Source of the DNA: a virus | Virus record (IMG/VR): IMGVR_UViG_3300026531_000001 | Span: 1-64,000 of that record | Reading direction: 5' to 3' (one strand) | DNA length: 64,000 nt | Shown: piece after piece, positions 3,471 to 63,278 of the stretch | Layout of the letters: every line of letters starts with the position of its first letter | Position numbering within the stretch: the stretch's first letter is position 1 | Translations under genes and position numbers: made by a program | Notes under the pieces: model-generated | Database searches by the model: none | What the model was told of the DNA's origin: nothing | Seen by the model: the letters and a program-made list of their open reading frames with translations, nothing else

Positions 3471-4370
3471 ATGCCCGAGATGCGCTTCTACGTCCAGCCC
3501 ATGCCGTCCGGCGCCGCGACCCGGGTCGTGCTGGGCCTCGAGGACGGCCTCGACCCCTACGTCTACGTCACCCGGGACCCGGCACCCCCCGACCCCGCCA
3601 ACCCGGGGCCGGCGCGCGCGCTCGTCACCCCGTCGTCGCGCATCTACCCCGCCGAGGACCCCTTGCGGGTGCACCCCCACCCGCGCCTGAAGTTTCGCCA
3701 GGCCCTCGACCTGGACCGTGAGCTCGAGCTGGGACCGGTCTACTACCACCTCTTCGCCACCCCCGACCGCGGGGCCTCCTTCCTGGGCCCCGTGACCGTG
3801 AGCGTGGACGCGGCCACCCCGTCGCGCACCGCCGCCTCGTTCGCCACTCGCGACCTGGTGCGGCCGCGCCTCGACTACCACCTCGCCCGCTTCGTGGACG
3901 AAGGCCGCATCCAGCCGGCCGCCGGGTATGTTCCCGTGCTCGAGCAGGAGTCCCTGGCCAAGGACGACCCGTTGCCGGCGGTGCTCATCAAGGAGGCCAT
4001 CATCCCGACCACCTACGGGATCGGCCAGCACCGCGGGGAGTGGGTGGACAACGGCGACGGCACCGCCTACCGGGAGTTCGCCTACCGGTATCGGGCGCGC
4101 CTCGACATGCTCGTGGTCAGCGAGAACCCGGCTGAGCGCACCGAGCTCGCCAACGCCCTGCATGATGCCCTGCTCACCGACCAACCCCTGCTCGAGACCG
4201 TAGGGTATCGCGGCCTCACGATCCAGCGCATGACCCACGCCGCCCCCTCCCCTGAGGGCTTCATGGTCTACGGGGAGGAGATTACCCTTGACGGCGAAGT
4301 AGAAATGGTAGCGCGCGAAGAGCTGCGTTATGCAGTAGCCGAAATGGAGACCTTTTTCACACCGCTATGA
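3471..4370 (+). CDS. phage structural protein, tail-terminator-position candidate
   Basis: A 299-residue protein with no motif I can name with certainty. It has a proline-rich first third and an alpha/beta C-terminal part (RARLDMLVVSENPAERTELANALHDALL..LLETVGYRGLTIQRM). That C-terminal pattern resembles tail terminator or neck proteins, which handle short phage ends. It lies between a gp10-like gene and the sheath gene, where contractile-tail phages often carry such proteins. The role is inferred from position. Confidence 0.45.
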   Translation: MPEMRFYVQPMPSGAATRVVLGLEDGLDPYVYVTRDPAPPDPANPGPARALVTPSSRIYPAEDPLRVHPHPRLKFRQALDLDRELELGPVYYHLFATPDRGASFLGPVTVSVDAATPSRTAASFATRDLVRPRLDYHLARFVDEGRIQPAAGYVPVLEQESLAKDDPLPAVLIKEAIIPTTYGIGQHRGEWVDNGDGTAYREFAYRYRARLDMLVVSENPAERTELANALHDALLTDQPLLETVGYRGLTIQRMTHAAPSPEGFMVYGEEITLDGEVEMVAREELRYAVAEMETFFTPL

Positions 4371-4609
4371 CGCGAGGTGTCACCGTGCTCATACTTACCG
4401 ACCAACGCCACGTCTGCGTGGAGTGCAAGAGTGCTTACTTTGTTACCGCTGACGATACATATGCTGAAGGAGAAGACCTGCTAACCCATGATGTGCACCC
4501 CCTGGATCGTCACCCTACCGACCCCGCGCGCTTCCTATGCCCGGCGTGCGGTGGGGAACTCGTCAACGTCCATTGGGTAGACGAAGCACTCAGCTTGCAA
4601 GATTACTAG
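4367..4609 (+). CDS. small zinc-ribbon protein
   Basis: An 80-residue protein with two CxxC knuckles (CVECK near residue 18 and CPACG near 58), the hallmark of a zinc ribbon. It begins in an ATGA overlap with the structural gene; an in-frame GTG at 4385 is an alternative start. Such ribbons often bind nucleic acid or act as small adaptor subunits. It is the last gene before the tmRNA. Confidence 0.6.
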   Translation: MTRGVTVLILTDQRHVCVECKSAYFVTADDTYAEGEDLLTHDVHPLDRHPTDPARFLCPACGGELVNVHWVDEALSLQDY

Positions 4610-4630
4610 GCCGTCTTGTAAACTAGACAG
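4595..4630 (+). promoter_or_regulatory. tmRNA promoter with phage operator
   Basis: A -35 TTGCAA (4595-4600) and a -10 TAAACT (4619-4624) are 18 nt apart, upstream of the tmRNA 5' end at 4663. The -10 sits in the 8-bp spacer of an inverted repeat, CCGTCT-N8-AGACAG (4611-4630), one member of the operator family shared with six other promoters here. The leader between promoter and mature 5' end would be removed by processing. Confidence 0.6.
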
Positions 4631-4662
4631 CGAGGAGGGGCCACCCTGCCCCCCTTACAACT

Positions 4663-4958
4663 GGGGCCGAAATGGATTCGACGGGGAGGGGCGATTGGGC
4701 GCTGCGGGCCGAGGAGCCGGTGGCCTCGTAAAAACCGGCACGCCATAACTGGCAACCCCATGCTCAAAGCCGCTTAGCGGCGAACACTATCGGCAAGAGG
4801 CACTGAGACCCTAACCTTCTGGTAAACGTATGCTTGACACCGCCGCACAATGGAGTGCCCGCCCAGCGTGCGGAACACAACATCTGGTAGGGCTACGCTC
4901 GTAGACGCGCTCAGTCTCCCCTTTTCGGACGCGGGTTCGACCCCCGCCGGCTCCACCA
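4663..4958 (+). ncRNA. ssrA: transfer-messenger RNA (tmRNA) with an unusual tag
   Basis: The 296-nt gene begins GGGGCCGAAATGGATTCGAC, the classic tmRNA 5' end. It closes with a T-arm (GCGGGTTCGACCCCCGC) and GGCTCCACCA. The ends pair as an acceptor stem (GGGGCCG with CGGCTCC), and CCA is encoded. After GTGGCCTCGTAAAAA, the motif CATAACT precedes the resume codon as in Thermus. The tag is read from 4751: GGC AAC CCC ATG CTC AAA GCC GCT, stop TAG at 4775-4777, giving GNPMLKAA. Thermus uses ANTNYALAA, so the resume codon is Gly and the terminal Leu-Ala-Ala is Lys-Ala-Ala. tmRNA rescues stalled ribosomes and tags the nascent chain. The gene lies between virion genes, so it is phage-borne. It is shorter than the roughly 350 nt usual in bacteria. 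Confidence 0.93.
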
Positions 4959-4968
4959 GAAACTCACC

Positions 4969-4991
4969 GACCGCCCCGTAATGGGGCGGTC
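4969..4991 (+). terminator. hairpin after the tmRNA
   Basis: GACCGCCCC, loop GTAAT, GGGGCGGTC: a perfect 9-bp stem starting 10 nt after the tmRNA CCA. There is no T-run behind it, so it may be a U-independent terminator or an RNA-protecting hairpin. Confidence 0.55.
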
Positions 4992-39748: not shown

Positions 39749-40381
39749 ATGACACAACGACGACCGCTAGGGCAACTAATACGCGAACGGATGGAGTCGC
39801 GCAAGCTCAGTTTGCGCGACGTTGATGCACTCAGCCGGGGTTTGGCCGAAAAACAACCAGAGCTGTACGAAAGAATATCGCGGCCGACACTGCATGCGCT
39901 CATTCAGGATGAGGGGGCAACGCGAACGCTATCGCCGGCGCGCCTACGCACGCTTGTAGCGCTCCTATGGGACGGCCACTACGAAGACTTCGTGAGCGAA
40001 ACGGGCCTCGCCATCGTGGCCCCCGGAGAAGAACCAACGACCGGTCGCGTTGCGGTTACTGTGCCCGTATATCTCGAGGGCGAATCGGCGGCGGCCGGAG
40101 CCCCGAGGCGGGAGGAGCCAACGTACCCATGCGACATGCTCTATGTGGCCACATCACGCCGCATCCGCTGCTTGCCTGAGGGCGAACCGGTGGGCGTGCG
40201 CGCTACCGACCGCATCGAGAAGGGCGACTTGGTGATCATCGAGCGCTTGGGCAACGGCCTCGAGGCGGTGTGGTCCACGGAGTCAGGGTTTGTGTACGAT
40301 GACGAGCCAGCGGCACCTCCAAAACCGAGCGACCGTGTGGTAGGGGTGGTCGCATGGATCGTGCCAAAGCGGACGGAATGA
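39749..40381 (+). CDS. CI-like phage repressor with degenerate S24-type C-terminal domain
   Basis: A 210-residue protein. The N-terminal 85 residues are helical with an HTH-like segment (LSLRDVDALSRGLAEKQPELYERISRPTLHALIQ). A hinge with an Ala-Gly pair (EGESAAAGAPRR) precedes a beta-rich domain (RIRCLPEGEPVGVRATDRIEKGDLVIIERLGNG...VVGVVAWIVPK) like LexA/CI peptidases. The catalytic Ser usually seen before the GDLV segment is not visible. Behind the divergent promoter region and ahead of parA, it is the best candidate for the maintenance repressor. Confidence 0.65.
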   Translation: MTQRRPLGQLIRERMESRKLSLRDVDALSRGLAEKQPELYERISRPTLHALIQDEGATRTLSPARLRTLVALLWDGHYEDFVSETGLAIVAPGEEPTTGRVAVTVPVYLEGESAAAGAPRREEPTYPCDMLYVATSRRIRCLPEGEPVGVRATDRIEKGDLVIIERLGNGLEAVWSTESGFVYDDEPAAPPKPSDRVVGVVAWIVPKRTE

Positions 40382-41190
40382 TGATCATCGCCATCGCAGC
40401 CGAGAAGGGCGGGGTAGGGAAGACCACCACCGCCGTCAACCTTTCCGCCTACTTAGCCGAACGCGCAGGCAAAGTGCTACTGGTAGACATGGACTCACAG
40501 GGGCAGGCAGGCATGTTCCTGGGGTTCACTACAGAGGGCGAAGACCGTGCGGGCATGTATGAACTGCTCGTATTTTCGGACCCCCTTTCGCCCATCTATC
40601 GCCCCGCAGAAGAACTCATCACACTAAGCGTGCGGCCTGGGCTCGACCTGATCCCCAACAACCCGCGCATTGCTCAAGCCGAGTTGGAGATCGCCGGGCG
40701 CGAGAACAGGCACATGATCCTGGCCGACCGCTTGCGCGAGGTGAGCGACCGGTACAAGGCCGTGGTGATTGACGTGGGCCCCACAGTCAACCTGGCCAGC
40801 CTGTTGGCCCTGTACGCGGCAGACGCCGTGATCGTGCCCGTAGCTCCCGGTGCCGCCACGCGCGCGGGTGTAGAGGGGCTCAGGACGCGGCTCAGGGCCA
40901 TGCGCGACCGGTTGGAGTACGCCCCGGCGCTCATGGGGGTGCTCGCCACCATGATTGACCGGCGCGAAAAGCTCTCGCGCAACTTGATCCCAGATCTGCA
41001 AGAGAACTACGGTCCCCTCTACGCCGGCCACATCCGCCGCAACGTCCACCTAGCCGAAGCACCGGAGCGGGGCTTGACCATCTTCGAGTACAAACCCAAC
41101 TCGCCCGGGGCCATTGACTACATGGCGCTAGGCGACTGGGTGCTCGAGCGCCTGAACCGCGCGGAGGGAGGAGAGCAGCATGCCCAATAA
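40378..41190 (+). CDS. parA: ParA-family partition ATPase
   Basis: A 270-residue protein (start chosen in the ATGATG overlapping the repressor stop) with the deviant Walker A K10-GGVGKTTT (AAEKGGVGKTTTAVNLSAYLA), the A' motif LLVDMDSQGQA, and Walker B VVIDVGPTVN. It ends with typical HIRRNVHLAEAPERGLTIFEYKPNSPGA. It moves plasmid or prophage copies to daughter cells with a centromere-binding partner encoded by the next gene. Finding it next to the repressor gene implies maintenance as a plasmid. Confidence 0.9.
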   Translation: MMIIAIAAEKGGVGKTTTAVNLSAYLAERAGKVLLVDMDSQGQAGMFLGFTTEGEDRAGMYELLVFSDPLSPIYRPAEELITLSVRPGLDLIPNNPRIAQAELEIAGRENRHMILADRLREVSDRYKAVVIDVGPTVNLASLLALYAADAVIVPVAPGAATRAGVEGLRTRLRAMRDRLEYAPALMGVLATMIDRREKLSRNLIPDLQENYGPLYAGHIRRNVHLAEAPERGLTIFEYKPNSPGAIDYMALGDWVLERLNRAEGGEQHAQ

Positions 41191-46304: not shown

Positions 46305-46379
46305 TGGTAGCGGGAGCGGGAATCGAACCCGCGACCTCCAGGGTATGGGCCTGGCGAGCTACCGCTGCTCCATCCCGCA
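46305..46379 (-). tRNA. initiator-type tRNA-Met (CAT)
   Basis: A 75-nt cloverleaf with encoded CCA. Hallmarks of initiator tRNA: position 1 (T) does not pair with 72 (T) while 2-7 pair perfectly, and the D stem is GAGC/GCTC (A11:T24), the reverse of elongator tRNAs. The anticodon stem CCAGG/CCTGG has two G:C pairs next to the loop instead of the usual three. The loop CCCATAC gives anticodon CAT but has C at position 33 where T is nearly universal. The T arm is GCGGG-TTCGATT-CCCGC. Confidence 0.85.
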
Positions 46380-46383
46380 GCAT

Positions 46384-46473
46384 TGGCGGTGGGGGCAGGA
46401 TTTGAACCTGCGGCGCCCCAGAGGGCGCGCCCGGTTAGCAACCGGGTGCCTTAAGCCGCTCAGCCACCCCACC
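46384..46473 (-). tRNA. tRNA-Ser (GCT)
   Basis: A 90-nt class II tRNA: acceptor GGTGGGG/CCCCACC, discriminator G, CCA encoded, anticodon stem CCCGG-TTGCTAA-CCGGG giving GCT, and a long variable arm (GCGCCC-TCT-GGGGCGC), as expected for serine. It reads AGC/AGT codons. The gap to the initiator tRNA is only 4 nt. Confidence 0.9.
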
Positions 46474-46486
46474 GGAGCCCCGTTCA

Positions 46487-46560
46487 CCCCTACGCCTAGC
46501 CACCTGGGGGGGGGTGGACAAGGCGGCAAGCCGGCATACACCGACGGTTCGGCGTAGGGG
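46487..46560. repeat. inverted repeat between two tRNA genes
   Basis: CCCCTACGCC (46487-46496) and GGCGTAGGGG (46551-46560) are exact complements flanking about 54 nt that contain a run of nine or more G and a further CCGAC/GTCGG-type pairing. It may be a processing structure for the tRNA precursor. No gene is seen. Confidence 0.45.
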
Positions 46561-46568
46561 GTAGGGGT

Positions 46569-46644
46569 TGGTGGACGCGACAGGATTTGAACCTGCAACC
46601 TGCCGGGTGCAAACCGGCCGCTCTCCCGTTAGAGCTACGCGCCC
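46569..46644 (-). tRNA. tRNA-Ala (TGC)
   Basis: A 76-nt tRNA: acceptor GGGCGCG with CGCGTCC, including the G3:T70 pair that is the alanine identity element. The anticodon stem GCCGG-TTTGCAC-CCGGC gives TGC. The T arm is GCAGG-TTCAAAT-CCTGT, and CCA is encoded. Confidence 0.9.
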
Positions 46645-46646
46645 AT

Positions 46647-46732
46647 TGGCGGAGGGGGCAGGACTCGAACCTGCAACGGCTACGCCGCCCCGATTTTCGA
46701 GACCGGTTGCCGCACCTACTGGCGACCCCTCC
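46647..46732 (-). tRNA. tRNA-Ser (CGA)
   Basis: An 86-nt class II tRNA: acceptor GGAGGGG/CCCCTCC, discriminator G, CCA encoded. The anticodon stem CCGGT/ATCGG with loop CTCGAAA gives CGA. A variable arm (CGGC-GTA-GCCG) confirms serine. It is the first gene of the leftward tRNA cluster; the region 46733-46913 upstream holds no clear gene or strong promoter. Confidence 0.88.
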
Positions 46733-58036: not shown

Positions 58037-58042
58037 TACGGT
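58037..58042 (+). promoter_or_regulatory. leaderless promoter -10 element TACGGT
   Basis: TACGGT 7 nt before the ATG at 58050, in a GCCCC/GGGGC inverted repeat. It supports 58050 over the upstream in-frame GTG at 58041. Confidence 0.5.
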
Positions 58043-58049
58043 GGGGGCA

Positions 58050-61000
58050 ATGCCATGGACTGCAGACCGCTACCCCGACGCTATGCGCCACCTCTCGCCA
58101 CCGGTGCGTAGGCGCGCCATTCGCATCGCCAACTCATTGCTGCGCAACGGCTACGGCGAGGGGGAGGCCATACGGATCGCTATAGCCCAGGCCAAGCACC
58201 AGCTGGCCAAGGGATACTACTTGGCCTACGACCCCAATGGGTTCGCCCTGGTCTTTTGGCTCGAGCCTGAGGCACCGCTCGCCAAAGCTGAAGGGGGATC
58301 GGACCTAGGCCCGAACGAGCGCTGGGTTACGCTCAAGCCCCATGGACCCGACCATCCCGACTATGTGCACGTCAAGATCAAGGTCAACCCCGACGGCAGC
58401 GCCCATGTGGTCTCCGGCCCAAAGGGGTTGCACGGCTTGCGACTGACGCGCATCGGTGGGAAGAAGGACGGCCGACGCGAGAAGGCCGACGTGCCCCCCG
58501 AGGAGATGGCGCGCCGCAAAGAGCTGGCGCAGCGACTGCAAGAGCACATCCAGGAGGCCCACCGCGCGGCCTTGGCCGCCGCCGCCCGCATCACCGGGAA
58601 CCCCCACCTCGAGCGCTTGCTCGACGACGACACCCGTGAGCAGCTGCGTACGATCGCGCAGCAGGCGGTGGGGGAGGGCCCCGAGGCGAGCCTCGGGGCG
58701 GGCCTGGCCACCGCGCGCCACGTGCGCGCCGCTACCCAAGCGATCAAGCGCATCGAACGCCAAGTGCTCAAGCACCTGGTACGCGACCCCGATCTACGGA
58801 GCGCGGTCCTTGGCGAGCACGACGCAATCCAGCCGGAGGAGGTTCCCGGGGCGGAACCGACCCCAACCCCCAGCCGCGGCTACGGGGGGTCCATGCGCCA
58901 GATGGCCGAAGAGCACGGGCTCACGGATGAGGAGTTCGAGCGCGAGGCCGAGGACGCTTTCCAGGCCCGGCTCGCCCAGTACGCCCCCGAGGTGCAGGCG
59001 CGCATCCTGGCGGCGCGGGAGCGCATGCGGGCTGCGCAGCCCCTGGCGCGCGAAGCCGGCGCCGCCCTGGAGGAAGCGGCACCGAAGCCCGCCGCCCCCA
59101 CCCCCGAAGAGCTGCGCCAGCATGCGGACGACGTGCGCACCTTCCTGGCCGCGTCCCGCAAGCTGCGCCAGCTGCAAAGGGCGAAGCGCCGCGCCCTGCT
59201 CGGGCATGACCCCGAGGCGACCGAAGCCGAGATCAAGGCCCTGGAGGAGGCCCAGCGCGCCGAGGACGGGAGCCCGCTGGTGGTCCACGCCGAAGAGGTA
59301 GACCCCGAGCTGGCCCGCGAGCTGCAGGCGAGGATCGCCGACCTGGCCAAGGAGGACCTGACCCGCAGCTTCCTCGACACCGTGCAGCGCGCCGCTGAGC
59401 CCGGTTGGAGCTACGGGGAGCTGCGGAAGGCCCTCTACAAGCACTACGCAGCCGGAGCCTACGCGCACCTGAGCAATGTGGGTCTGGCCGTACTGGGGCA
59501 CGACACCCTGGACCGGCTGGCCCTGGACGCCCTGGGCCTCGACGCCGGGGCGAAGCTCATGGCCCACGCGCTGCGCCGCGGCCTCAGCGACGAAGAGGTG
59601 GCCAAGGTGCGCAAGGCCCTTGCGGAGCATCACGACCAGACCCTCGAGCCCATGCTCAAGGAGGCCATGGAGTGGGGCACCAAGGCGCTGGAGGCCGCCA
59701 GAGCGATCGAAATCCCGGCGATTACGGCCACCACCGACGCCCTGATGGTCATGGACCTGGTGCGCAAAAAGCGGCGCCTGCTCGAAGAGGCGTACCGCCA
59801 CCTGGGGACCGCGCTCGGGAAAATGGAGGCGTCCGCCGCTCTCAACTACGCCCTGGGGCAACCTCCAAGCGACCACCTCGAGCTCGAGTTCGGCAAGAGC
59901 GCGCGCGAGGTGATCCCGGCGCTGCGGGCCCTGGGTCTGCAGCCGGGCGACTACACCTACGACTGGGAGGGCGACCGCTTCAAGGTGCGCGTCAACCGCG
60001 CCGGCATGGACCGGCTCACCCCCGAAGCCGATCCCGAGGAGCGCGCCCGCGCCGACCGCGTGAAGGCGATCAAAGCGGGCTTGCACGACGAAGCGGACTG
60101 GCTGCCCGCCGGCTTCGCCCGGTACCCAGCCACGGCCTTCGACCAGCAGGAACCCCCGAAGGCCAAGCGCTTGGCTCGGGCCCCCGACTTCAGCCGCGAC
60201 GTGCGCGCCGGCCTTGAGGAGGCCATCGCCAGCCGGTTGGCGGACGGGTGGACCCCCACCGAGCTAAAGCGGCTGCTCACGTCCGCGAGCTTCATCCGCG
60301 ACTGGGTGCCGCCGGAGAAGATGGAGGCGTACGACCAGCACCTTGAGGAGCTACTTCCGACGTGGGCGGGGGAAGAGGTCCGGCGCAACAAGCAGGGTGA
60401 GGAGTACCGGGTGCCGATCCCGGTGGACTACGACCGCCTCGAGGAGAAGCACCCCGAGCTGCACGAGCGGTTGCAGGGCATGGCCCGGGCATTCGTGGAG
60501 AAGGAGCACCCTGGCGAAGCCGACTTCTACAGCCAGACCGTTGCCGACACCCCCGAGGTGCGAAAGGCCCTCTACCTCACCGTCCTCGAGGACCCGCGCA
60601 CTCAGGTGGCCCTCAAGCCGCTGGGCGACCTGACCCACCGCGATCAGCGGGCGATCCGCCACTACTACCTGACCGAGGTCTTGGGCAAGAGCCCCGAGGA
60701 GCTGGCGGCGCGCAAGGAGTCGGTGCGCAAGGCCCTGGCCGCGTACGACGCCAAGCACCCCATGCCCGACAAGTGGGGCGCGCCGTCTGATGGCGGCCTC
60801 TTCGGCGACCCGCAGCCCGTGGACCCCGAGGCCCCGGTGACGCTGCGCTTTCGCCAGCACGTCGCCGCCGACCCCGACCTCAAGGCGGAGACGCTGCGCG
60901 CCATGGGCCTGGGCCACGGCGACTACGTGGAGAACGACGACGGCAGCGTCACCCTCACCGAGGACGGCAAGGCCAACCTCCGGGGCAACCCCTACCCGGA

Positions 61001-63278
61001 CCGGCTGGAGAGCGACCTGCCCCTGAACCCGGACTGGGTGCGGTGGCACCGCGAGCGGCAGCAGACGGCCACCGACGCGCTCGGGGAGCAGGAGGAGCTG
61101 GTCGAGTGGAACAAGTTCGTGGAGGGCCTGGGCGGGCCGCAGCGTGCGTACGAGGCCATCCAGGAGCACATGCGCGGCCAGCTCGCCAGCCGCTACGCCC
61201 ACTACCACGCCAAGCTCACCGGCCAGCCGCTGCGCCTCTCCAAGGTGGCCAACCGCTGGGGCGAGCACTTGTGGGCCGTGCATGACCCGGCCAGCTACCG
61301 CGCCTTCAAGGACGAGATCGCCCGCCAGCAGCACGCCCTGCGCGAGCGCCAGGGTGGGAAGTTCGCCTACATGGGCGGGCGCGGCTCGCTCCTCGAGGCG
61401 TGGCGCAAGAAGAAGGAGGAGGAGCGGGCTGCGCGCATGGCGCAGGGGAGCCTGTTCGCCGGAGCGGGCGATGAGGCCCTGGACCCTGAGGCCCCGGTGC
61501 CGCACCTGGAGCGCCACGCCCTGCCCCCCGCCGTCGAGAAGCGCCTGGCCGCGATCCTGCCGGAGGTCGCCGGCAGCGTGCACTCCGGGATGAGCCCCGT
61601 CCAGATGTACCCCGTAACCATGGGGAAGGGCACCAAGTACGTCAAGCAGCAGCGGGCGATAAAGGCCATTATCGAAGGCCAGAAGCTCGCAGCCTTCCTG
61701 GGAACGGGAAGCGGAAAGACCTCCGTCGCCATCGGCGGTTTCACCGAGCTGCACCACCGCGGCGAGGCCCAGAAGGGCTTCTTCGTCGTGCCCTCGATCG
61801 TGCGCGACCAGTTCGGGGAGGAAATGGCGCGCGTGCTCGAGCCGGGCAAGTACCGCTGGCACGCGCAGGAAGCCGACGGCGAGCAGCGCCGCGCGGCGTA
61901 CAAGGCCCGCGACGTGCACATGGTTGCGGTCACGCACCAAGCGTTCCGCGACGATATGCTGCGCCTCATGGCGGAGCACCACGGGGAAGACCCCGAGGCG
62001 TTCAAGCAGCGCTTCCTCGACGCCGACCTGAGCGAACGCCAGCGCCTGATGCGCGAGGCCCTGGACGCCCACGGCATCCCGCTGCACTACCTGGCCGTGG
62101 ACGAGGCCCACGACGCCCTGAACCGCCAGGGGAAGGCGGAGAGCCTGCTAACGGCGGTGCTGGATACCGCGATGAGCCTTTCCAGGTACGGCACCCTCAT
62201 GACCGGGAGCCCGGTCAAGAACGACGCTTCCGAGATCGGCGACTGGCTGCGCAAGCTGGACCCGAAGCGCTTCGGTGACCCGGCGGAGTTCCGGCGCCGT
62301 TACGGTGTGGACGCGCTCACCGCGCGCGAGGCCCTGAAACGGCTGGCTGACCGCTACGTCTACCACGACGTGGTGCCCTCGGGCGTCACCAAGCGGGTGG
62401 TTTGGGGGGCAGACGGCACGCAGGGCGACACGCCCAGCGGTCATGCCCCCATCCCCCTGCACCCCCAGCAGCAGGCAGGGCTCGAGGCCGTGCGCCATGC
62501 CTACCAGCGGGCCGTGCGCGCCCGCGACCGTGGCGACGTGGACGTGGACGCCCTCAAGCAGCTTTCGCCCCGGTCCTTCGAGGGCGTGCCCGAGGCCCAG
62601 CACGAGGAGATCGCTCGGCGCCTGAACCGCAGCCTGGGCGTGCTGCACGAGGCGGCCAAGGCGCGGGTGATCAACGAAACGCCGGCCGACCAGAACGCCA
62701 AAATCCAGCACCTGCTCAAGCTGGCGGACCAGCGCCGCGGCAAGGGCGGGGTGATCTTCGCCCACAACCGCCGCGCGGTGCACGAGATCGCCCAGGCCCT
62801 CGAGCGCGCGGGTCACAAGGTGGCCGTGCTGCACGGCGGCCACAGCGCCCAGGACAAGGCCCGCATTCGGCAGCGCTTCGATCGCGGCGAGGTGGACGTG
62901 ATCGTCGCCTCGGACGCCGGGGCGACGGGGGCAAACCTGCAGCACCGGGGTGAGTGGCTGGTTCACTACGACCTTCCCATGACGCACAAGACGTGGGAGC
63001 AGCGCTCGGCGCGCATTGACCGGCTGGGGCAGAAGCGGCCGATCGAAATCCACACGCTGATGACCGACTCCGACCACGACCGCACCAGCCTCGAGCGCTT
63101 GGAGCGCAAGCGCCTGCTCGGGACGATCTTCCAGGGGCCCTATGAGCACATGGACGATACCGGCCTGGCGCTGCAGCTGCAGCTGGCTGGCCTCTCCCGC
63201 CCGGAACGTCCCCGGGACGACGACCCGACGCCGCCGCCCGTGCCCCCGCCACCGCAGCAAGGGGCCCTGTTCGGGTAG
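58050..63278 (+). CDS. giant polyvalent protein with C-terminal SF2 helicase
   Basis: A very long protein, about 1740 residues. The first 50 residues (MPWTADRYPDAMRHLSPPVRRRAIRIANSLLRNGYGEGEAIRIAIAQAK) form a small helical domain also known as a stand-alone protein. A short beta segment follows (ERWVTLKPHGPDHPDYVHVKIKVNPDGSAHVVSGPKG). Residues 150-1180 are mostly alpha-helical with no enzyme motif I can name. The end is an SF2/SNF2-like helicase: G1218-TGSGKT (motif I), D1351-EAH (motif II), LMTGSPVKN (III), and the second RecA domain GVIFAHNRRAVHEIAQAL..VAVLHGG..VIVASDAGATGANLQ..EQRSARIDRLGQ. Such proteins near head genes are thought to be packaged and injected with the DNA. Confidence 0.85.
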   Translation: MPWTADRYPDAMRHLSPPVRRRAIRIANSLLRNGYGEGEAIRIAIAQAKHQLAKGYYLAYDPNGFALVFWLEPEAPLAKAEGGSDLGPNERWVTLKPHGPDHPDYVHVKIKVNPDGSAHVVSGPKGLHGLRLTRIGGKKDGRREKADVPPEEMARRKELAQRLQEHIQEAHRAALAAAARITGNPHLERLLDDDTREQLRTIAQQAVGEGPEASLGAGLATARHVRAATQAIKRIERQVLKHLVRDPDLRSAVLGEHDAIQPEEVPGAEPTPTPSRGYGGSMRQMAEEHGLTDEEFEREAEDAFQARLAQYAPEVQARILAARERMRAAQPLAREAGAALEEAAPKPAAPTPEELRQHADDVRTFLAASRKLRQLQRAKRRALLGHDPEATEAEIKALEEAQRAEDGSPLVVHAEEVDPELARELQARIADLAKEDLTRSFLDTVQRAAEPGWSYGELRKALYKHYAAGAYAHLSNVGLAVLGHDTLDRLALDALGLDAGAKLMAHALRRGLSDEEVAKVRKALAEHHDQTLEPMLKEAMEWGTKALEAARAIEIPAITATTDALMVMDLVRKKRRLLEEAYRHLGTALGKMEASAALNYALGQPPSDHLELEFGKSAREVIPALRALGLQPGDYTYDWEGDRFKVRVNRAGMDRLTPEADPEERARADRVKAIKAGLHDEADWLPAGFARYPATAFDQQEPPKAKRLARAPDFSRDVRAGLEEAIASRLADGWTPTELKRLLTSASFIRDWVPPEKMEAYDQHLEELLPTWAGEEVRRNKQGEEYRVPIPVDYDRLEEKHPELHERLQGMARAFVEKEHPGEADFYSQTVADTPEVRKALYLTVLEDPRTQVALKPLGDLTHRDQRAIRHYYLTEVLGKSPEELAARKESVRKALAAYDAKHPMPDKWGAPSDGGLFGDPQPVDPEAPVTLRFRQHVAADPDLKAETLRAMGLGHGDYVENDDGSVTLTEDGKANLRGNPYPDRLESDLPLNPDWVRWHRERQQTATDALGEQEELVEWNKFVEGLGGPQRAYEAIQEHMRGQLASRYAHYHAKLTGQPLRLSKVANRWGEHLWAVHDPASYRAFKDEIARQQHALRERQGGKFAYMGGRGSLLEAWRKKKEEERAARMAQGSLFAGAGDEALDPEAPVPHLERHALPPAVEKRLAAILPEVAGSVHSGMSPVQMYPVTMGKGTKYVKQQRAIKAIIEGQKLAAFLGTGSGKTSVAIGGFTELHHRGEAQKGFFVVPSIVRDQFGEEMARVLEPGKYRWHAQEADGEQRRAAYKARDVHMVAVTHQAFRDDMLRLMAEHHGEDPEAFKQRFLDADLSERQRLMREALDAHGIPLHYLAVDEAHDALNRQGKAESLLTAVLDTAMSLSRYGTLMTGSPVKNDASEIGDWLRKLDPKRFGDPAEFRRRYGVDALTAREALKRLADRYVYHDVVPSGVTKRVVWGADGTQGDTPSGHAPIPLHPQQQAGLEAVRHAYQRAVRARDRGDVDVDALKQLSPRSFEGVPEAQHEEIARRLNRSLGVLHEAAKARVINETPADQNAKIQHLLKLADQRRGKGGVIFAHNRRAVHEIAQALERAGHKVAVLHGGHSAQDKARIRQRFDRGEVDVIVASDAGATGANLQHRGEWLVHYDLPMTHKTWEQRSARIDRLGQKRPIEIHTLMTDSDHDRTSLERLERKRLLGTIFQGPYEHMDDTGLALQLQLAGLSRPERPRDDDPTPPPVPPPPQQGALFG

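Follow-up and report, generated by a model that had tools for sequence, protein, structure and literature searches.

The window, a stretch of 64,000 nucleotides, is part of an 80,753-base (80.8 kb) virus record, which is that of a myovirus related to the Thermus phages Lalka8, Lalka27a and Lalka27b. A one-piece tmRNA (ssrA) gene lies in its tail gene block, and the next genes after it encode a tail sheath protein, which shares 65% identity with the sheaths of the three Lalka myophages, and a tape-measure/M23 protein. Other genes of the record encode a terminase large subunit, a portal protein, a replication initiation protein, a DnaC-like helicase loader and a ParA-like protein. No SmpB gene was found in the 80,753-base record. 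The closest relative found, L248, carries a tmRNA at the same place, and the features of the locus are as follows.

3471-4370: structural gene, on the upstream side of the tmRNA
4367-4609 (+): 80-aa ORF with two Cys-x2-Cys pairs (zinc-ribbon-like), beside the tmRNA in both tmRNA-bearing phages
4595-4624 (+): promoter-like TTGCAA-18-TAAACT, partly within the end of ORF 4367-4609; L248 counterpart TTGCAT-18-TACACT
4613-4628 (+): 16-bp palindrome GTCTnGTnnACnAGAC spanning the -10 element and conserved in L248
4663-4958 (+): one-piece tmRNA gene, 296 nt with encoded CCA (ARAGORN, Rfam RF00023, homologue at the L248 locus)
4663-4669 (+): P1 acceptor stem, 5' strand, pairing with 4948-4954 (7/7 pairs in both phages) and containing a G3:U pair
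4693-4702 (+): P2, 5' strand, pairing with 4907-4916 (10/10 pairs in both phages)
4710-4739 (+): pseudoknot 1, 4710-4714 with 4724-4728 and 4716-4720 with 4735-4739 (Rfam alignment; every pair in both phages)
4744-4750 (+): entry motif CATAACT, identical in L248
4751-4777 (+): tag frame GNPMLKAA and stop TAG (ARAGORN), set by the A at 4747
4769-4781 (+): P5-like hairpin, the stop codon lying partly in the loop and partly next to it (from the sequence, counted in both phages)
4931-4947 (+): T arm (Rfam alignment and pairing count)
4948-4958 (+): P1, 3' strand, then ACCA (sequence and pairing count)
4971-4989 (+): GC-rich hairpin CCGCCCC-GTAAT-GGGGCGG downstream of the tmRNA, lacking a T run; a hairpin lies at the corresponding place in L248
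5243-6982 (+): tail sheath gene (PHROG tail sheath, E 6.9e-54), marking the locus downstream of the tmRNA

The tmRNA gene is complete and conserved in a related phage

ARAGORN run on the window predicted a one-piece tmRNA at 4663-4958 (+) with the tag GNPMLKAA followed by a stop, and the Rfam tmRNA covariance model RF00023 matched the same bases at 136.5 bits (gathering threshold 47, E 2.6e-53), with an alignment that covered model positions 1-374 of 374 and was not truncated. The first-pass annotation had placed a complete phage tmRNA gene between structural genes, and both methods reproduced its coordinates and strand exactly. It had proposed a covariance model as a check on the acceptor and pseudoknot parts; the acceptor and pseudoknot 1 were present in the full-length match, and only the region of pseudoknots 2-4 was shortened, where the alignment was loose and of low posterior. 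The G3:U pair of the acceptor stem is the one expected for alanylation. Minimum-free-energy folding alone gave z-scores of -1.45 and -0.47, which do not count as evidence.

The sheath of L248 is 87% identical to that of this phage, and its tmRNA scored 134.4 bits with RF00023 and encodes the tag GNTQPQLRAA. The E-value of the RF00023 match, together with this homologous but diverged tmRNA at the same position, excludes a chance match. The ends of the two tmRNAs are nearly identical while the interior has strongly diverged. In the inner helix of P2, all 10 pairs are kept although seven of them differ between the phages, two on both sides. A covariation count as high was reached in 111 of 500 shuffles, and this comparison of two sequences is supportive of the helix, not proof of it. 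No near-identical tmRNA was found among viral contigs by DNA pattern search.

The tag ends in a basic residue followed by Ala-Ala

The motif CATAACT directly abuts the resume codon GGC at 4751, and the codons from 4751 to 4774 (GGC AAC CCC ATG CTC AAA GCC GCT) are followed by the stop TAG at 4775-4777, giving the tag that the first-pass annotation had read, with a Gly resume codon and a Lys-Ala-Ala end. The A at 4747 is at -4 from the resume codon and is the equivalent of A86 in E. coli tmRNA, which sets the tag frame (PMC2481249). ATAACT ahead of GGC is also present in further viral tmRNAs, for example L028 and L048. The remaining two frames read WQPHAQSRLAANTIGKRH and ATPCSKPLSGEHYRQEALRP, each up to a stop, and neither ends in LAA; a resume codon in another frame with a tag ending in LAA was the outcome named beforehand as telling against the tag.

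One of the two features of ssrA-type degrons, the C-terminal Ala-Ala, is present in GNPMLKAA, and the other, a hydrophobic Leu at -3, is replaced by Lys here and by Arg in L248. L248 has the same codons GGC AAC and CTC, but CGC (Arg) in place of AAA (Lys), the two Ala codons GCC GCT swapped synonymously to GCT GCC, and TGA in place of the stop TAG. Both tags therefore end in L-[K/R]-A-A while codons and stop have changed, and the survival of this end where the nucleotides do not survive suggests selection on the peptide. In particular, the Arg reached through an unrelated codon in L248 suggests, from two sequences, that a basic residue at -3 has been selected.

In order to judge how unusual this end is, viral contigs were fetched by patterns for tmRNA ends and their tags read with ARAGORN. 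At least 85 distinct one-piece viral tags were present among the matches listed, including one evident miscall (L120). Fewer than half of these ended in LAA (39), followed by MAA (11), VAA (8), IAA (5), KAA (2) and RAA (2), again among the matches listed, while 16 of the 85 began with Gly and 11 were eight residues long. These frequencies are only rough, since they cover the matches listed and may include host ssrA genes in prophage flanks. The four tags ending in Lys- or Arg-Ala-Ala among the matches listed were those of this phage and L248, together with ANTYRKAA (L034) and DEPMLRAA (L125), which showed no convincing relation to this pair. Myxococcota ssrA genes were read as a bacterial yardstick; 0 of 29 tags had a basic residue at -3, and ends in MAA or IAA were ordinary there also.

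The survey counts make the Gly resume residue and a residue other than Leu at -3 ordinary, and a basic residue at -3 uncommon but recurrent. The tag had been called non-canonical, and it does differ from the Thermus thermophilus tag ANTNYALAA (PMC6133939), a literature tag that may not be that of the host, but a telling difference is not supported, as Gly and the ends MAA, VAA, IAA, KAA and RAA recur across viral tmRNAs. The survey also showed that viral contigs of one family, L005-L011, which bear large tRNA clusters, have a tmRNA in common, with a 23-residue tag, DKNETIIAFHPAFMACVAERAAA. In addition, ARAGORN read a tmRNA with the tag VNTNVFGSQMMAAA in Myxococcus phage Mx1 (L384:1459-1835), which is missing from the annotation of that record.

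Sequences flanking the tmRNA

The first-pass annotation had proposed an operator-type promoter that may be switched with the lytic cycle. The sigma-70-like TTGCAA-18-TAAACT is conserved in L248, where a 24-base block that surrounds the -10 element and includes GTCTnGTnnACnAGAC is nearly identical, but a strict promoter scan found none, and it is therefore graded as weak. A promoter belonging to the tmRNA itself is moderately supported. An operator at GTCTnGTnnACnAGAC is weakly indicated, and the support for its being switched stops at this one conserved palindrome. A shared phage operator was rejected, as the window holds one exact site and two sites with two mismatches at chance level, with no second clear copy of GTCTnGTnnACnAGAC. 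The hairpin at 4971-4989 is a possible terminator. A further GC-rich hairpin lies directly 5' of the tmRNA (4632-4656, +), and L248 has a hairpin of different sequence at the same place.

The tmRNA is an accessory gene in this group of phages

In Lalka8, the one Lalka phage examined for the tmRNA and the ORF, the structural and sheath genes lie close together and no tmRNA is present. Six other loci, with sheaths of 55-65% identity, likewise yielded no tmRNA; several of these loci are short fragments. The neighboring 80-aa ORF has a 66% identical copy in L248, is absent from the Lalka8 locus and the other tmRNA-less sheath-bearing loci compared, and had no match in Pfam, PHROG or the phage collection. 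Since Lalka8 and the other sheath loci lack both, the tmRNA and the ORF are an accessory feature of one branch.

T. thermophilus is the host of the isolated Lalka relatives (PMC11437467), while the contig of the closest relative, of 79,030 bases, was binned in a Polyangiaceae MAG. Host assignment through sheath homologues failed: across 141 Myxococcota genomes the single match was the MAG contig itself, so a binning artefact may explain the Polyangiaceae label of L249. Three other parts of the record were noted. A ParA-like partition gene (40354-41190, +; PHROG 164, E 1.7e-56) may indicate that the phage is kept as a plasmid prophage. The 1745-aa helicase-containing protein encoded at 58041-63278 (+) likely corresponds to the DarB-like protein that has been reported in the Lalka phages (PMC11437467). 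A cluster of four tRNAs, Met(CAT), Ser(GCT), Ala(TGC) and Ser(CGA), is located at 46305-46732 (-).

Predicted role in ribosome rescue

From the observed gene, its structure, the tag frame and their conservation, we infer how the RNA might be expressed, charged and used with host SmpB, and what would become of tagged proteins. Whether transcribed from its own promoter or excised from the late structural transcript, the phage tmRNA would receive alanine from the host enzyme by way of its G3:U acceptor pair and reach stalled ribosomes with host SmpB and EF-Tu. Translation would then resume at GGC and add (A)GNPMLKAA. Most likely the RNA would serve to raise rescue capacity when late genes are heavily translated or mRNA decays in the infected cell. 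The freeing of ribosomes can in itself be of use to a phage: in phage lambda-immP22 grown in E. coli, it is ribosome release that is needed, not destruction of the peptide (PMC2481249). It had been suggested that the phage RNA replaces host rescue, but full replacement is ruled out because the phage record has no SmpB.

A tag ending in Ala-Ala would most likely still lead to proteolysis. ClpX binds the Ala-Ala-COO- end (PMC10638403) and also takes substrates ending in VAA (RseA) and RRKKAI (MuA) (PMC8138137), and with this end intact in GNPMLKAA degradation is the default expectation. The lysine at -3 may adjust how fast tagged protein is degraded, or by which protease. We consider it probable that the gene is a working phage copy of ssrA, charged by the host and delivered by SmpB and EF-Tu, which adds its tag and raises rescue capacity, and that the tag is still degraded.

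A putative change in the rate or route of degradation of GNPMLKAA-tagged protein is possible. The stronger reading, that tagged proteins are degraded more slowly than those with the host LAA tag, or by another protease, which would spare phage proteins or shift the proteolytic load, we regard as unlikely. The suggestion of the first-pass annotation that such tags may escape degradation, sparing phage proteins or depleting host control, is speculative. It would account for the basic residue at -3 being kept by different codons in two related phages, recurring in the tags ANTYRKAA and DEPMLRAA of two viral contigs that appear unrelated, and missing from all 29 Myxococcota bacterial tags, as well as for the contrast with the Thermus tag, which ends in ALAA (PMC6133939). 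However, Ala-Ala-COO- is intact, ClpX accepts several residues at -3 elsewhere, and the MuA degron is itself lysine-rich (PMC8138137). That a lineage of phage tmRNAs selected the basic residue so that the host protease pathway treats phage-tagged and host-tagged proteins differently is quite unlikely.

Prophages can integrate at ssrA and carry fragments of it (PMC9004378), and a short gene with reduced pseudoknots 2-4 is what might be expected of a host ssrA captured in this manner, for example by imprecise excision, and now decaying. This is very unlikely, as two clearly diverged phages keep all the core helices, the A at -4, the CCA, the tag frame and the upstream motif, and their tags share one and the same departure from the usual LAA form. 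Also very unlikely is a decoy that titrates host SmpB or blocks host rescue, as might be proposed from the tRNA-like-domain-only tmRNA of phage DS6A, which is similar to a molecule for which inhibition of tmRNA has been shown (PMC4131195), since the gene here is complete, unlike that of DS6A, and a decoy would need neither the conserved open tag frame nor the stop hairpin.

Phages with a rescue RNA of their own that use host SmpB, as this one would, are a natural setting in which to test whether the sequence of the tag matters to a virus. The L-[K/R]-A-A end, for which two related phages use different codons, is a concrete and inexpensive case on which the protease specificity of thermophiles can be tested.

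Comparison with known tmRNAs

Bacterial one-piece tmRNAs (RF00023, Thermus thermophilus) share with the phage gene P1, P2, the T arm, pseudoknot 1, the stop hairpin, the CCA end and an ATAACT-type entry sequence. The phage gene differs in its length of 296 nt, its reduced pseudoknot 2-4 region, its Gly resume residue and its eight-residue tag ending in KAA. Short or unusual tags are common in phage tmRNAs. Complete one-piece tmRNAs are also carried on the genomes of Wildcat, Bxz1 and relatives, phage G and Myxococcus phage Mx1; no sequence relation to these was found beyond the conserved tmRNA ends, and here the gene lies in the tail gene block beside the sheath, not in a tRNA cluster. Lalka8, Lalka27a and Lalka27b share with this phage the order of the tail block as well as the 65% identical sheath, whereas Lalka8 has neither the tmRNA nor the adjacent 80-aa ORF. 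No description of a Thermus phage with a tmRNA turned up in the literature searched. A 2014 list named ten phages with ssrA (PMC4131195); in 2021 there were 402 among 18,146 genomes, and about 2.3% of isolated phages carry tmRNAs (PMC9004378). Phage-borne tmRNA is thus already well known, and what is mildly unusual here is the basic residue at -3 of the tag, common to this phage and L248.
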